Virus record (IMG/VR): IMGVR_UViG_3300042924_005820
Location: 1-34,391 of that record
Length of the DNA: 34,391 nt
Origin: a virus
Reading direction: 5' to 3' (one strand)
The notes under the pieces are model-generated. The model had not been told where the DNA came from and made no database searches. It saw only the letters and a list, made by a program, of their open reading frames with translations. The translations under genes and the position numbers were made by a program. This document shows, one piece after another, positions 22,228-32,178 of this stretch. Each line of letters begins with the position of its first letter. Position 1 is the stretch's first letter.

Positions 22228-25200
22228 ATGGCACCGATTCCGGTCATGACCGAGGACGAATATCAGGCACGTTACGGTGCAACCGGAACTTCGATCCCAT
22301 CGCTTCCACCTGCGATGACTCCCGCAATCCCCATGGCGCAACCTCAGCTCAACATCCCTGTGATGGATGAAGCCGAGTACACAAGGCGCTACGGCTCGAT
22401 GGGCGACAACGCCATTCGGGCAATTAAGGACATCCCTGCGGGTATTTACAACGCCCCGCAAGCTCTGGTGAGCACCGGTATCGGCGCCGTTGGAGCTGCC
22501 GATGCCATGCTTAGCGGTGAGCAGCTCGCGCCCGAAGAGCGGCAAGCGGTCCGAAACGTGGGTTCCATTGCGGCGGCTACGGCTGGAGGTCTAGCAGGAG
22601 CAAAGGGCGGAGCTCTCCTTGGAGCACCCCTTGGACCTATCGGCGCAGGTGCCGGCGGACTTATCGGTGGCGCTATCGGCGGAGGTCTCGGCCTCCTTGG
22701 TGTGGACTACTTCGCAGAGCAGCAGGGAGTGGATGCACCCCGCACGGGCCAAGAGCGCATGAACGAGCTCGCCTACAACGTGACTGGCGGCGTTGGTGGA
22801 GACCTTGCGCTTCGTGGCGTAGGCACCGCAGCAAAGGGTGTAGTGAACCCCATCCGACGAACTTTCACCGAAGCAGGACGCACCGAAGCCGCTGCAAACG
22901 TCGCGCGGCAGGTATACGGCGAGGATGCCGTGATCAACCTCTTGGATAACGAGGGCATACTTCTCAAACAGGAGCCCCTCTCTCAGTACAAGACCACAGC
23001 CGACGTACTAGGCACTGAGGGCGCCGCCCAGCTACAAAAGCAGCTACAGATGGAGCAGTTCGGCGACCCTATCGGCGAGAAGCTCGTAGGGCGCGAAGGC
23101 GCGCGGAAGGAGATGCTTCAGAGCCTTGCACCAGAGGATGCAAGCATCGCCCGCGTGCAGCAGAACCTGTCAGACCAGATGGATGCGCTACGCTTCACAG
23201 CAGGAGCCGCAGACCGGCAGCTTGGCTCAAGCATCGATCCGACATCGGCAGGGGCAGGTATACGAGAGATTGCGGAACTCTTATACGGCAGGAACCGCGA
23301 AGGTGTGCGGGAAAACTTCCAAAGTATCCCCCAGTCTGAGGTCAAGCGATTCGCTCCCACGAGCGAGCTCCTCACCGCCACCGACCGCTTAAAGGAGCTT
23401 TTTGGCCCTGGGTCCGAAGGAGCGCCCAATGAGCTTAAGCGCATGGTCGAGACCCTCAACCCTGAACTGAAAGCCGCTCCCGATGTTGATCCAACCACTC
23501 GGATGCTCCAAGAGATCCGCGGGCAAGCTGCAAAAGAGGTGGATCCTCGGCTCTCTCTCGACTACCTCCAACGGCTCAGACGCTGGGGTGGGGAAGCGGC
23601 CACCAAATACTTCAACAAGGGAGAGAACCGCTCGGGCTCCGTCGCTCAGGCTGTCGTCAAAGATATCGACGAGGGGCTTAATCAGGCGGTCGAGAACGGG
23701 ACGATGCCAGCGGATCAGGCGGCAGCCTACAAGAGTGCTCTCAAATCTCATAAGGATATGGCGCAAACCTTTGAGCGTGGCCCTATGGGGCGGATCCTTC
23801 GCCGTGGAGAGGGCGTGGAGGGCTACAACATAGAACCCAGCTCAGTAGGCCGTCAGTTCTGGAACTCGAGCCCCGAGTCGATGAAGAGCTTCACTAAGGC
23901 GCTCGGCGGCAACATGGAGGCGCGCGAGCTCCTCGTGCGCGATGCCGTGACCGACTTTCGCGGAGCCACCCGCGACGTCGATGGAGGCTTTAAGTCAAAA
24001 GATGTCAAACGGTGGATGACCGAGCACGAGCCGCTTCTCAACACGTTCCCAGAGATGAAGAAGGCCGTAAACGAGATTTACGTGAACGAAGCCAAGCGGG
24101 CGCTCAAGACCAAGAACTTCTCTAAGTTTGTGGAGGCTAACCCAGAGCAAGCGGCCTCTGTTCTTTTGAGCGGTAAAGATTCCGCGCGAACCGCGGATCT
24201 CCTCCTGCGAGATATCAAGGACCGCCCCGATCTCGTTCAAGGCGTGCGCAGAGGTATCATCGACAAGCTCCACGATGACCTTTACAGCATAGCTGACCTG
24301 AGCGCCAAGCCTGCAACCTTTAAGCGCTTCATGGATAAGAACGGCAGCGTTCTCAATAAGTATTTCGACAAGGACCAAATGACCGCCCTTGAGCGGATCT
24401 ACTCGGATATGGCCTCAGAGGTCCGCACCGAGGAGCTCGCGCGTCGTGGGTCTATCGGCAACTCGGTAACAGCACAAAAGGGGGCCCTCAAGGCAGAGCT
24501 TCAAGAGCTGATCCAAGATGAGTTTGGCACGGTTGGCAGCATCCTCAGAAACGGCGGGAAAGTCGGCACGGCGCTTGGCGCGGCGGCTGGCTTCTCAAAC
24601 TTCGGCATCTTCGGGAGCATGGTGGGCGCCTCCGCTGGTGGCTCCCTCGGCGCCAAGGTTACGAATATGATCTCCCGCGCTGAGAACGCAGCCATGCGAG
24701 AGCTTGCCAAGGCGGCAGCCGACCCCGCTGTCGCGTTGCAGCTTCTTTCTAAGTCGAGCACGACCCGTAAGGGCGTCATCCGGCAGGTGCTTGAGAAGAA
24801 GATCAACCCGCTTCGGCAGCTTGTAGTCTCGGGCTATATCGGAACCCGAGAGGACGACAACAAAGCGGCAGAGGACTTGGCGGCGCTCCTCCCCGAGAAC
24901 CGGCTTATGGCTACACCTACCGCAGCCCCAACCCCCAGCCCCTCACAGGCGGCGGATCTGGCTGGGGCTCTTCTCCAACCGGCTTCACTCCGTACTATGG
25001 CAGGGGGGCAGGATATGAGCACAACCAAGCCAAAAGCACAGCCAGCAAAGCAAGCACCCGTGGGCGACGTGGAGCTTACCCCGCGACGGGTAGACCCTGC
25101 CTTGGTTAACGCCGTGGTTATGCAAGAGAGCGCAGGCAAGGCAAACGCCGTGGGCCCTCGCACTAAATACGGCAACGCAAAGGGTTTAATGCAGCTCCTC

Positions 25201-25626
25201 GACTCAACAGGGAGAGAGATGCACAAAAAGCTCGGCATTAAAGAGGCATACGACCCCTTTAACGCAGAACAAAACAAGAAGATCGGCACCGCCTACCTCG
25301 GGGAGCTTGTGGGCCGCTATCAAAACAACGTGCCCCTCGGTCTTGCAGCGTATAACTGGGGCATGGGCAACCTCGAAAAGGCTTTTGACAAATTAGGAGC
25401 GAAAGGCCCGATGCCCGTGCAGGCTCTTATGGAAGAAGCGGTCATCGAGGGAATGAGCAGCGGCCTTTCTGAAAAGCAGGCCAAGCGGGCAGCGGCGGCC
25501 AAGGTGGTTGATACCTTCGGCATCGAAGTGTTGAATCCCTATATGCCAGACGAGACGCGCAACTACGTGCGAAAGATCATGACTAATTACAACAAGAAAA
25601 GAGGCACCGGCCTCGTAGAGGTGTGA
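22228..25626 (+). CDS. Large internal virion protein with lytic transglycosylase domain
   Basis: At 1132 residues this is the largest gene. It is probably ejected into the cell envelope at infection. The C-terminal domain (about residues 955-1060) is a soluble lytic transglycosylase: catalytic E967 in VVMQESAGK, then NAKGLMQL, an NAEQNKKIGTAYL helix and AAYNWGMG. This would open peptidoglycan locally. Two Gly/Ala-rich hydrophobic stretches (residues ~112-160 and ~778-811) could enter a membrane. The long middle is helical. A Pro/Ala linker precedes the enzymatic domain. The order after two smaller ejection proteins and before the fibre is normal for podoviruses; P22 gp16 is shorter, so this is closer in plan to T7-like large core proteins. 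Confidence 0.85.
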   Translation: MAPIPVMTEDEYQARYGATGTSIPSLPPAMTPAIPMAQPQLNIPVMDEAEYTRRYGSMGDNAIRAIKDIPAGIYNAPQALVSTGIGAVGAADAMLSGEQLAPEERQAVRNVGSIAAATAGGLAGAKGGALLGAPLGPIGAGAGGLIGGAIGGGLGLLGVDYFAEQQGVDAPRTGQERMNELAYNVTGGVGGDLALRGVGTAAKGVVNPIRRTFTEAGRTEAAANVARQVYGEDAVINLLDNEGILLKQEPLSQYKTTADVLGTEGAAQLQKQLQMEQFGDPIGEKLVGREGARKEMLQSLAPEDASIARVQQNLSDQMDALRFTAGAADRQLGSSIDPTSAGAGIREIAELLYGRNREGVRENFQSIPQSEVKRFAPTSELLTATDRLKELFGPGSEGAPNELKRMVETLNPELKAAPDVDPTTRMLQEIRGQAAKEVDPRLSLDYLQRLRRWGGEAATKYFNKGENRSGSVAQAVVKDIDEGLNQAVENGTMPADQAAAYKSALKSHKDMAQTFERGPMGRILRRGEGVEGYNIEPSSVGRQFWNSSPESMKSFTKALGGNMEARELLVRDAVTDFRGATRDVDGGFKSKDVKRWMTEHEPLLNTFPEMKKAVNEIYVNEAKRALKTKNFSKFVEANPEQAASVLLSGKDSARTADLLLRDIKDRPDLVQGVRRGIIDKLHDDLYSIADLSAKPATFKRFMDKNGSVLNKYFDKDQMTALERIYSDMASEVRTEELARRGSIGNSVTAQKGALKAELQELIQDEFGTVGSILRNGGKVGTALGAAAGFSNFGIFGSMVGASAGGSLGAKVTNMISRAENAAMRELAKAAADPAVALQLLSKSSTTRKGVIRQVLEKKINPLRQLVVSGYIGTREDDNKAAEDLAALLPENRLMATPTAAPTPSPSQAADLAGALLQPASLRTMAGGQDMSTTKPKAQPAKQAPVGDVELTPRRVDPALVNAVVMQESAGKANAVGPRTKYGNAKGLMQLLDSTGREMHKKLGIKEAYDPFNAEQNKKIGTAYLGELVGRYQNNVPLGLAAYNWGMGNLEKAFDKLGAKGPMPVQALMEEAVIEGMSSGLSEKQAKRAAAAKVVDTFGIEVLNPYMPDETRNYVRKIMTNYNKKRGTGLVEV

Positions 25627-26877: not shown

Positions 26878-27117
26878 ATGAACTACGTTGATGTGTGCCC
26901 TATAGGGTTTCAGGCTAATGATTGCTCGGATGATTTCATCCGAGATTATGTTAAGGCGTGGCGCAATCAAGAGCTTGCATCTTGCGACTGGACCCAGTTG
27001 TCTGACTCGCCGGTTTCAAATAAATCAGAGTGGGCCGCGTATCGGCAGGAGCTTCGCGACCTTCCCGAGCAGGGGCCCGATCCGAAGCTTTGGGTTTTTC
27101 CGGTGAGGCCAGCATAA
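26878..27117 (+). CDS. Tail fibre assembly chaperone-like protein
   Basis: The 79-residue product follows the fibre gene by two bases. Its core (RDYVKAWRNQELASCDWTQLSDSP, here two helices, then WAAYRQELRDLP) matches the usual pattern of phage tail assembly chaperones: a helix ending with DW-x-x-L-x-D-x-P, then W-x-x-YR-x-x-LR-D-x-P, followed by a short WVFP-like tail. These proteins help fibres fold or join. Length and position are normal for the family, so confidence is fairly high. Confidence 0.75.
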   Translation: MNYVDVCPIGFQANDCSDDFIRDYVKAWRNQELASCDWTQLSDSPVSNKSEWAAYRQELRDLPEQGPDPKLWVFPVRPA

Positions 27118-27120
27118 GCC

Positions 27121-27381
27121 ATGACAGACAAGCAAAAAGCCATGATGAACGCACTTGCGCCAGCTCTGAGCTTGTTGCTTTTCGGCTTCTTTGTCTTTGT
27201 CTCCCGTGAATTTATCGAATCCGTGCGAGCGGATCAGGCAGTACACGCACAACAGATCCGGCACCTTGAGCAGATGGTCGCTGAAAAGAGTATGCAGCTG
27301 CAATTCATTGAATCTCAAATGCACGACCTAAAAGACACGCTTCGCCGCATAGAGGCGAAGATCGACGAGATCCACAAATGA
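27121..27381 (+). CDS. Inner-membrane protein with coiled coil (i-spanin or holin-like)
   Basis: The 86-residue product has one N-terminal transmembrane segment (about residues 10-28, ALAPALSLLLFGFFVFVS) and a charged helical remainder with coiled-coil periodicity (HLEQMVAEKSMQLQFIESQ to RRIEAKIDEIHK). This is the topology of an inner-membrane spanin or of a one-TM holin. It overlaps by ATGA the exported Cys-rich gene, which suggests a lysis pair. No o-spanin lipoprotein is nested here. Holin versus spanin cannot be decided; a second holin-like gene is present at 5575. Confidence 0.6.
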   Translation: MTDKQKAMMNALAPALSLLLFGFFVFVSREFIESVRADQAVHAQQIRHLEQMVAEKSMQLQFIESQMHDLKDTLRRIEAKIDEIHK

Positions 27382-28196
27382 ATGTTAAAGCCCTCCTCCT
27401 CGCCGCTTCCATCCTCACGACGGGGACCGCAAGCGCCGAGAATGTGGGCCTAAGCTACCTCGGGATCTGTAACCCCACGTGGCCCTGCGAGCGCTCGCTG
27501 AACGCTTTCCGTCATAGTGAGACAATACGCACCGGCTGGCTCGAGCAGAGCTTCGGCGTTGCGTGCCCGTGTGCGGATAAGCTCCTGCGCGACAAGCGGC
27601 CCAAAGAGGTGCGGATCCACCTTGCAAACGGGCCCTGCCTTCGGAATCGCCGATGTAGTAGGGGGGAGGTCTTCCACGGGTTTACTGTTGCGAAAGCGAA
27701 CCGAGACCTTAAGCGAGAAGGCAGCAAGATAGCGCAGCGCGTGGCAAAGATAGCGCAGCGGGTGAGGGAGCGCCTATCTCGGGCCCGTGGCGCCCTTGTG
27801 TGCTACATTTCGCCGGTCTTGGAGGCTGACATAGGGGAACAGCAAAGGCGGGCCCTGCATCGCATAGCGGGCGCATATCTGCCCCACTGTACGCTGGTCG
27901 ATAGCCCGCACAAACGCCCATGTTTGCCCGATACAGTATGCGAGGCGCATGGTGACACCCCCACGCTCAAAAGCCCCTGCATCGCCGATCTCGATGGTGT
28001 ATCAGCCCATGATACACACGTGCCGAGCTACTTGCGCCGGTTTGCGAAATGCGACATCGCCTATCTCTGGGCGCATGGCTTCAACTGCAACGAAAAGGGA
28101 GCAAGCTTCTCAGGCCCTCCCGCCGCGCGTAATTGCGCAGGAGCCACGCAGGACATCGATAAGCTCGTGAAGTGGCTGAGAGCCACCTATAGGTAA
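27378..28196 (+). CDS. Exported Cys-rich protein, candidate novel lysin
   Basis: The 272-residue product has a Sec signal (MNVKALLLAASILTTGTASA, cleavage after residue 20) and 14 cysteines (31, 37, 63, 65, 87, 93, 142, 171, 182, 188, 201, 225, 237, 253), pointing to a disulphide-rich periplasmic protein. Strand-like segments with acids at their ends occur in order: KEVRIHLANGPC, GALVCYISPVLEAD, CIADLDG and CDIAYLWAHGFNC. This is reminiscent of a TIM-barrel glycosidase, with E149, D151, D204 and D206 as candidate catalytic residues. A tandem KIAQRVA/KIAQRVR occurs at 118-130. It occupies the lysis position after the fibre genes and overlaps a membrane protein gene, and no other free endolysin is visible. 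The lysin role is inference; no family is recognised. Confidence 0.55.
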   Translation: MNVKALLLAASILTTGTASAENVGLSYLGICNPTWPCERSLNAFRHSETIRTGWLEQSFGVACPCADKLLRDKRPKEVRIHLANGPCLRNRRCSRGEVFHGFTVAKANRDLKREGSKIAQRVAKIAQRVRERLSRARGALVCYISPVLEADIGEQQRRALHRIAGAYLPHCTLVDSPHKRPCLPDTVCEAHGDTPTLKSPCIADLDGVSAHDTHVPSYLRRFAKCDIAYLWAHGFNCNEKGASFSGPPAARNCAGATQDIDKLVKWLRATYR

Positions 28197-28197
28197 G

Positions 28198-28273
28198 TGG
28201 CTCCACGGGAGGGACTCGAACCCCCGACAAGGCGGTTAACAGCCGCCTGCTCTACCAACTGAGCTACCGTGGA
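28198..28273 (-). tRNA. tRNA-Asn (anticodon GTT)
   Basis: A complete 76-base tRNA reads on the minus strand: acceptor TCCACGG pairs with CCGTGGA, D stem GCTC/GAGC with AGTTGGTA loop, anticodon stem GGCGG/CCGCC with loop CTGTTAA (anticodon GTT), T arm with TTCGAGT and one G-T pair, discriminator G and encoded CCA. The starting T matches bacterial tRNA-Asn. It is the last gene of the leftward early operon, and its CCA ends one base from the convergent stop codon at 28196. Confidence 0.95.
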
Positions 28274-31783: not shown

Positions 31784-31972
31784 CTATTTCCTCCTGTACG
31801 ATTGAACCGCTTCGGATGAAGGCAAGCTAAGCGCCACCTCGTTTCCAAGCACTTCCACGTTAATGAAGATCCACGATCCGAGAAGCCCGATGATAATCAG
31901 GTCGGTGAGGACCGTAACGGCGAGGCCCTTAATCGTGAACAGGTCTTGTTTCACTTCGTTGATGAGGCTCAT
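31784..31972 (-). CDS. Small single-TM protein coupled to a lipoprotein gene
   Basis: The longer frame from 32095 would cover most of the lipoprotein gene, so I choose the ATG at 31972, in a one-base TAATG overlap with the lipoprotein stop; the product is 62 residues. MSLINEVKQDLFTIKG is followed by a transmembrane stretch (about residues 15-38, VTVLTDLIIIGLLGSWIFI) and a polar tail that ends QSYRRK. Together with the lipoprotein it could form an envelope complex spanning from inner membrane to outer membrane. The function is not known. Confidence 0.6.
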   Translation of the reverse strand: MSLINEVKQDLFTIKGLAVTVLTDLIIIGLLGSWIFINVEVLGNEVALSLPSSEAVQSYRRK

Positions 31973-32178
31973 TACTTTACCGCCTCCTCTGCGCTCGTTT
32001 CGGCCGTTGCGGCACAGTTTACGAAAAGGCACTTGAGCGGTGGCTGCGCATACGTGCGTTGCGAGCTTTGCGACTCGTCGATCTTTTGAATCCATGCCTT
32101 ACCGCCGATCTCTATTCCTGAGCAGCCGCTTACTAGCAAAGCAAGCGCCGCTAAAATTACTGCGTTTAATTGTCTCAT
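31972..32178 (-). CDS. Small lipoprotein
   Basis: The 68-residue precursor has an AAGGAG ribosome site eight bases before its ATG. The signal MRQLNAVILAALALLVSGC ends in a good lipobox (V-S-G-C19) followed by Ser, which does not signal inner-membrane retention, so the mature 50-residue lipoprotein would go to the outer membrane. It carries two more cysteines (CLFVNC). It lies in the early operon, far from the lysis genes, so an o-spanin role is less natural than superinfection exclusion (as with phage-encoded Llp-type lipoproteins). That is inference. Confidence 0.7.
   Translation of the reverse strand: MRQLNAVILAALALLVSGCSGIEIGGKAWIQKIDESQSSQRTYAQPPLKCLFVNCAATAETSAEEAVK

Follow-up and report, generated by a model that had tools for sequence, protein, structure and literature searches.

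A Family of Exported, Cysteine-Rich Proteins with a Predicted TIM Barrel in Phage Lysis Cassettes

The last late-operon gene in the DNA of a virus encodes a Sec-exported, cysteine-rich protein, a TIM barrel by structure prediction, of a new, undescribed family that is tied to phage lysis cassettes. The DNA is IMG/VR virus record IMGVR_UViG_3300042924_005820, all 34,391 nucleotides of which were analyzed and are called the window here. The late-operon lysis position and the Sec signal are the ordinary parts of this finding; the family itself is new, as is, judging from sequence, a putative open reading frame (ORF) nested within the family gene in other clades. The protein is probably an enzyme that helps to break the host envelope, and an accessory role suits it better than that of just another type of endolysin. 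The reading that we favor, with about even confidence, is that of a late-expressed, disulfide-stabilized lysis-cassette protein that cuts envelope glycan and in most relatives helps a lysin.

Lysis by phages of Gram-negative bacteria is usually described in terms of a holin, a lysin, and spanins. A strictly conserved, exported, cysteine-rich extra that is kept through lysin exchange would point to an unrecognized lysis step or to a new class of wall-cutting enzymes.

Results

The Gene and Its Surroundings

The ORF that closes the late operon (Table 1) is a real gene. Its pairwise dN/dS ratios of 0.08–0.32 (0.15 against the related genome L003) indicate a selected protein and rule out a chance ORF. 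As the initial annotation had noted, the gene stands in a lysis position and overlaps a gene for a small protein with one transmembrane segment followed by a coiled coil (TM/CC), the overlap being the 4 bases that its ATG shares with the TGA of the latter; the position is borne out by a fixed cassette order in relatives. Matches of the TM/CC protein to Rz-like spanins are weak (E = 0.04–0.08). Upstream lie genes for a tail fiber assembly chaperone, a fiber, and a virion-type protein with an SLT domain, the size and place of which mark it as an entry-type enzyme rather than a free endolysin. The tRNA gene directly downstream occupies the spot of the relatives' holin gene, wedged between the late operon and the genes on the opposite strand.

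The major capsid protein of the window is 51–59% identical to those of Bradyrhizobium phage ppBjS10J-1, Stenotrophomonas phage BUCT555, and Myxococcus phages Mx8 and Mx9, all of which have Gram-negative hosts, and the phage group shows both capsid and portal kinship with Mx8, BUCT555, and ppBjS10J-1. The late operon of ppBjS10J-1 ends with a gene for a peptidoglycan-binding protein, followed by genes for small membrane-type proteins. Two further exported products are encoded on the minus strand of the window. One (31972–32178) is a small lipoprotein of 68 amino acids with an LLVSGC motif and a conserved cysteine pair, a possible o-spanin or moron with homologues in L003, L011, L100, and many loci of the DUF5675 group described below. 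The other (598–1074) belongs to no known family, carries the signal MNKRAVTILCALLLLPSLAFA, and has a 59% identical copy in L003.

Table 1. Features of the window and of two related loci
Feature	Coordinates	Strand or frame	Remarks
Virion-type protein, 1132 aa	22228..25626	+	SLT transglycosylase domain at 25084-25404
Tail fiber assembly chaperone	26878..27117	+	Upstream neighbor; PF16778, E = 1.3e-17
Small TM/CC protein, 86 aa	27121..27381	+	One TM segment, then coiled coil; 4-bp overlap with the 27378 gene
Cysteine-rich exported protein, predicted TIM barrel, 272 aa plus stop	27378..28196	+	ORF, conservation, model
Sec signal peptide, residues 1-20	27378..27437	+	Predicted cleavage between TASA and ENV; from sequence
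Codon of E56	27543..27545	+	Immediately beyond strand 2; Glu in 98% of the 48 members
Codons 149-151 (E149, D151)	27822..27830	+	E149 directly after strand 4; invariant (n = 48); candidate catalytic acids
Codons 204-206 (D204, D206)	27987..27995	+	D204 at end of strand 7; invariant (n = 48)
tRNA-Asn(GTT)	28198..28273	-	Directly after the 27378-28196 gene
Putative nested ORF, example	L086:6446-6595	+1 in family gene	MDAQERSFIASQLLISLAVLSLIILFAVTAYGESSVRDTDQIQVLLPRV
Putative nested ORF, homologue	L087:6443-6592	+1 in family gene	

Export Signal, Cysteines, and Family

The N-terminus, MNVKALLLAASILTTGTASA followed by ENV, is a typical Sec/SPase I signal, and a signal-like N-terminus was found by a simple rule (hydrophobicity plus A-x-A) in 83/83 testable relatives. 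The mature part contains 14 cysteines (precursor positions 31, 37, 63, 65, 87, 93, 142, 171, 182, 188, 201, 225, 237, and 253), each of them present in 86–89 of 89 relatives; the signal and the cysteine count are thus as first annotated. In the majority of the other members the count is 16 or 18; the numbers are mostly even (14, 16, 18), with pairwise loss: C142 goes with C171 (L121, L154) and C237 with C253 (L100), and C147 and C150 are both missing in the window and SLT clades. Co-loss of this kind was the sole basis on which likely disulfide pairs were assigned.

No recognized family had been named for the protein at the outset, and searches bear this out: Pfam, NCBIfam, and PDB sequences hold no relative, the one PHROG match is at chance level, and neither a lysis PHROG nor a recognized peptidoglycan-hydrolase domain (Pfam, NCBIfam) was found. 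Weak PDB and Pfam sequence matches (exotoxin, CbiK, PapB, and others; E = 0.01–0.8) were dismissed as chance. A pattern-based count gives 179 related stretches in viral contigs (170 in an earlier round); close relatives were taken from these contigs, distant ones were reached via the neighboring chaperone gene, and the set was extended from alignments of these. A tblastn search of 50,697 phage records with three family members found nothing; a search of plasmids gave a single match (E = 0.3), put down to chance; and two scans of about 85,000 prokaryote genomes, made with short, strict peptide patterns that distant relatives could escape, returned no relative. Conservation was assessed in 48 members less than 93% identical to one another and 35–77% identical to the window protein. 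The residues invariant across them are C, W, R, H, and D/E residues, among them E149, D151, D175, E189, H191, D204, D206, W231, and most cysteines, together with N236. All four acids initially singled out (E149, D151, D204, and D206) are in this list.

Predicted Fold and Candidate Active Site

An initial AlphaFold model, built from four close relatives, had a pLDDT of 57 and was set aside. Run on the mature protein with 48 sequences, AlphaFold produced a model with a mean pLDDT of 95.0 and a pTM of 0.93, in which eight strands follow one another in barrel order and helices are missing between strands 5–7. Comparison of this model with the PDB gave no match reaching E = 0.001 and TM-scores of at most 0.54, so that its likeness to glycosidases is one of class only. 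Among the 50 matches listed, every one with a probability of at least 0.98 is a glycoside hydrolase; the glycoside hydrolases listed include CtCel5E (the best, E = 1.4e-3), mannanases, tomato beta-galactosidase, and endoglycoceramidase II. The initial annotation had proposed a TIM-barrel glycosidase from acid-ending strands and had suggested structure prediction with a fold search, and the outcome, a hydrolase-like barrel matched at class level with marginal E-values, agrees with it. The same fold was found in three unannotated phage proteins in BFVD (A0A6J5M538, A0A6J5SYH0, and A0A6J5MYV4; E = 9e-17 to 1e-10, 19–24% identity), two of which are longer (375 and 451 amino acids).

The acids of the model lie where an active site would be expected. 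In addition to the pairs in Table 1, E56, H81, D175, H191, and W231 lie at the ends of other strands or close to them. E149 occupies the position of the clan GH-A acid/base, at the end of strand 4. The strand-7 acid here is Asp rather than Glu, for which reason we do not claim membership of that clan; the residue before E149 is, moreover, not Asn. A GDPD/phospholipase-D barrel was rejected, GDPD acids lying on early strands, unlike those of the 272-aa protein; NodB deacetylase and xylose-isomerase-like metal barrels were set aside, having ranked below glycosidases in the fold search. A metal enzyme is a possible alternative barrel type.

Lysis Cassettes of Relatives

Eighty-nine loci, a few of them repeats of one contig, were fetched for comparison. 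In 72 the order is DUF5675, TM/CC, family gene, usually with an overlap of 4 bp, the TM/CC genes of this DUF5675 group being homologues of that in the window. Nearly all loci of the group that reach far enough continue with a Pam3-gp28-type holin gene, the start of which overlaps the 3′ end of the family gene (Pfam matches: PF18925 for DUF5675, E = 7.6e-35; PF23987 for the holin, E = 4.6e-08). The loci without DUF5675 are those of the window clade, the SLT clade, L100, and four that are cut off upstream. In the SLT clade (L086–L091), a gene for a canonical SLT lysin (PF01464, E = 3e-14; 157 amino acids in five of six) overlaps the start of the family gene, which is followed by a gene for a membrane-type protein of 56–57 amino acids. 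In L100, a GH24 lysozyme gene (PF00959, E = 4e-7) lies directly upstream. The family gene thus stays in place as one lysin replaces another; this is how a companion behaves, rather than the lysin itself.

The L100 family member (L100:5809-7113) has an extra C-terminal domain, a proline-containing linker, and a lipobox (LLAAC), the only canonical one in the family; the window protein has an SPase I-type signal. In several family-bearing contigs (G005, G010, G020–G022, G029, and G031–G033), an additional free SLT protein of about 160–220 amino acids is encoded on the opposite strand, well away from the cassette.

DUF5675 is probably a lysin itself, by analogy of position: in the Mu-like Vibrio phage martha 12B12 its gene follows the late activator and precedes the DksA-like and DUF2730 genes, and the lysis genes of Mu lie between the late activator and the DksA-like/DUF2730 genes. 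Where it is present, DUF5675 is a likelier lysin than the family protein. Members such as L007:6177-6620 and its homologues carry an H...THGC motif like that of L,D-transpeptidases, with a sub-threshold YkuD match (E = 0.16). DUF5675 occurs in lysis cassettes and also turns up in Microviridae records, and it is possibly an undescribed lysin type.

The Window Clade

The window groups with L003 and L004/L005 in a single clade (support 100/99), in which DUF5675, a separate lysin, and a recognized holin adjoining the family gene are all missing, and the cassette genes seen are those of the TM/CC protein and the family protein. L003 has an exact 127-bp terminal repeat and is therefore read as a complete genome; scans of its genes for protein families found no other free lysin family, the virion SLT protein excepted. 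The earlier statement that no known free endolysin is present accordingly holds for the window and L003 at the sensitivity of Pfam, leaving aside the virion SLT domain. Of 34 contigs, 28 carry that domain within a long virion-type frame, the other six being those of the SLT-lysin clade and L100, so that by itself it does not explain the missing lysin; it was rejected as a substitute lysin peculiar to the window clade, since all contigs of the DUF5675 group carry it too. The window clade retains all candidate catalytic residues and, from the gene content, the 272-aa protein may be its working endolysin.

A Putative ORF Nested within the Family Gene

Codons 153–198 of the family gene contain, in the +1 frame, 4 stops where 106.5 (standard deviation 7.7) were expected; the expectation comes from 300 shuffles of synonymous codons, none of which was as low, in sequences reaching down to about 40% identity, related ones being counted several times. 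The start of the ORF (ATG at aligned codon 153) is shared by 77 of 88 loci and its stop (codon 202) by 71, and its predicted product, of about 49 amino acids, has one strongly hydrophobic segment (a single TM). It occurs in the DUF5675 and SLT clades. It is absent from the window clade, which retains E149 and D151 nevertheless, so that the nested start is not the sole cause of their conservation. A lipoprotein was considered and rejected, most members having no canonical lipobox and some not even the Cys. The nested ORF would be another example, in a lysis cassette, of one gene packed inside another as Rz1 is in Rz.

Discussion

On the reading that we favor, the protein would be made together with the lysis cassette and carried to the periplasm by its cleavable signal, where about seven disulfides would form as it folds in oxidizing surroundings. 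It would then hydrolyze envelope glycan, most likely peptidoglycan, by means of E149/D151 at the end of strand 4 and D204/D206 at the end of strand 7. In most relatives it would assist a separate lysin (SLT, GH24, or DUF5675); the window clade lacks such a lysin gene, and most of the wall cutting there may fall to the family protein. Peptidoglycan cutting by the family protein is not obviously needed, because canonical lysins coexist with it. A bolder version, which we hold tentatively and doubt in its full extent, describes a phage-only family of exported, disulfide-dependent TIM-barrel wall glycosidases that act as a second lysin in most phages and as the sole endolysin in the window clade, with the gene in other clades also encoding the membrane lysis protein of about 49 amino acids in the +1 frame.

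The new endolysin class initially proposed is not supported for most of the family, where the protein is a companion of SLT, GH24, or DUF5675, and may hold only for the window clade, where it is the sole cassette enzyme. There it might be a true endolysin, a signal- and disulfide-dependent glycosidase released or activated when the TM/CC protein collapses the membrane potential, as with a pinholin and a secreted endolysin. The two-gene cassettes of the window, L003, and L004/L005, the lack of another free lysin family in complete L003, and the retained catalytic residues argue for such a system; we still consider it rather unlikely, since lysins adjoin the family gene elsewhere, the virion SLT protein or an unrecognized gene could lyse, and no holin was identified in the clade. 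A target other than peptidoglycan, such as an outer-membrane glycan or capsule, cut as the last lysis step in place of spanins, would fit the coexistence with several lysin types, the lipobox and proline-containing linker of the L100 protein, and a simple motif scan that found no convincing lipobox o-spanin gene within 1.5 kb in the family loci. The weak Rz-like matches of the TM/CC protein and the conserved small lipoprotein elsewhere, however, leave room for a split spanin pair, and we judge this account unlikely.

Late-operon ends often carry moron-type cargo, and the window has a second exported protein (598–1074); a secreted protein acting in superinfection exclusion or host interaction, unrelated to lysis, is nevertheless improbable, given that order and overlaps with lysis genes are fixed over 72 loci and that the family gene persists through lysin exchange with a conserved ORF nested inside it. 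Least credible to us, and very improbable, is a barrel without catalytic activity that would serve a partner lysin as regulator or scaffold. Such a protein would suit the constant presence of a partner enzyme outside the window clade and the non-canonical acid pair, but the invariant E149, D151, D175, E189, H191, D204, and D206 lie at or near strand ends, as would be expected of an active site, and the window clade has no partner lysin.

Comparison with Known Systems

The secretory endolysins with a signal peptide or SAR sequence, such as P1 Lyz, phage 21 R, and M4Lys (PMC7143992), resemble the family protein as envelope proteins of phage lysis cassettes that reach the periplasm unaided, through an N-terminal export signal. 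The family protein differs from them in having no known muralytic domain, in being very cysteine-rich, and in usually standing beside another lysin: it would be the sole cassette lysin in the window clade, is not in L086–L091 and L100, and probably is not in the DUF5675 group. DUF5675 (PF18925) shares the cassette in 72 loci and is a separate protein of about 140 amino acids with an H...(T/S)xGC motif. An o-spanin is a small tethered lipoprotein, whereas the window protein is a predicted 252-aa barrel without lipobox.

Among the enzymes, GH25 (Chalaropsis-type) muramidases are likewise small TIM barrels with few helices in the second half and with acids on strand 4. The family protein, however, has E-x-D after strand 4 where GH25 has D-x-E, none of its 48 members matches GH25 in Pfam, and no GH25 structure is among the 50 PDB matches listed. 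Clan GH-A (the GH5, GH26, GH35, and GH2 barrels) supplies the best Foldseek matches and shares with the model of the family protein the eight-strand barrel, a Glu directly after strand 4 (E149), an acid ending strand 7, a His near strand 6, and a Trp at strand 8. It differs in showing no sequence relationship and in having a strand-7 Glu nucleophile where the family has the invariant D204/D206; the family protein, moreover, has 14–18 conserved cysteines in only about 250 residues. The three BFVD phage proteins, themselves uncharacterized, share its predicted fold.
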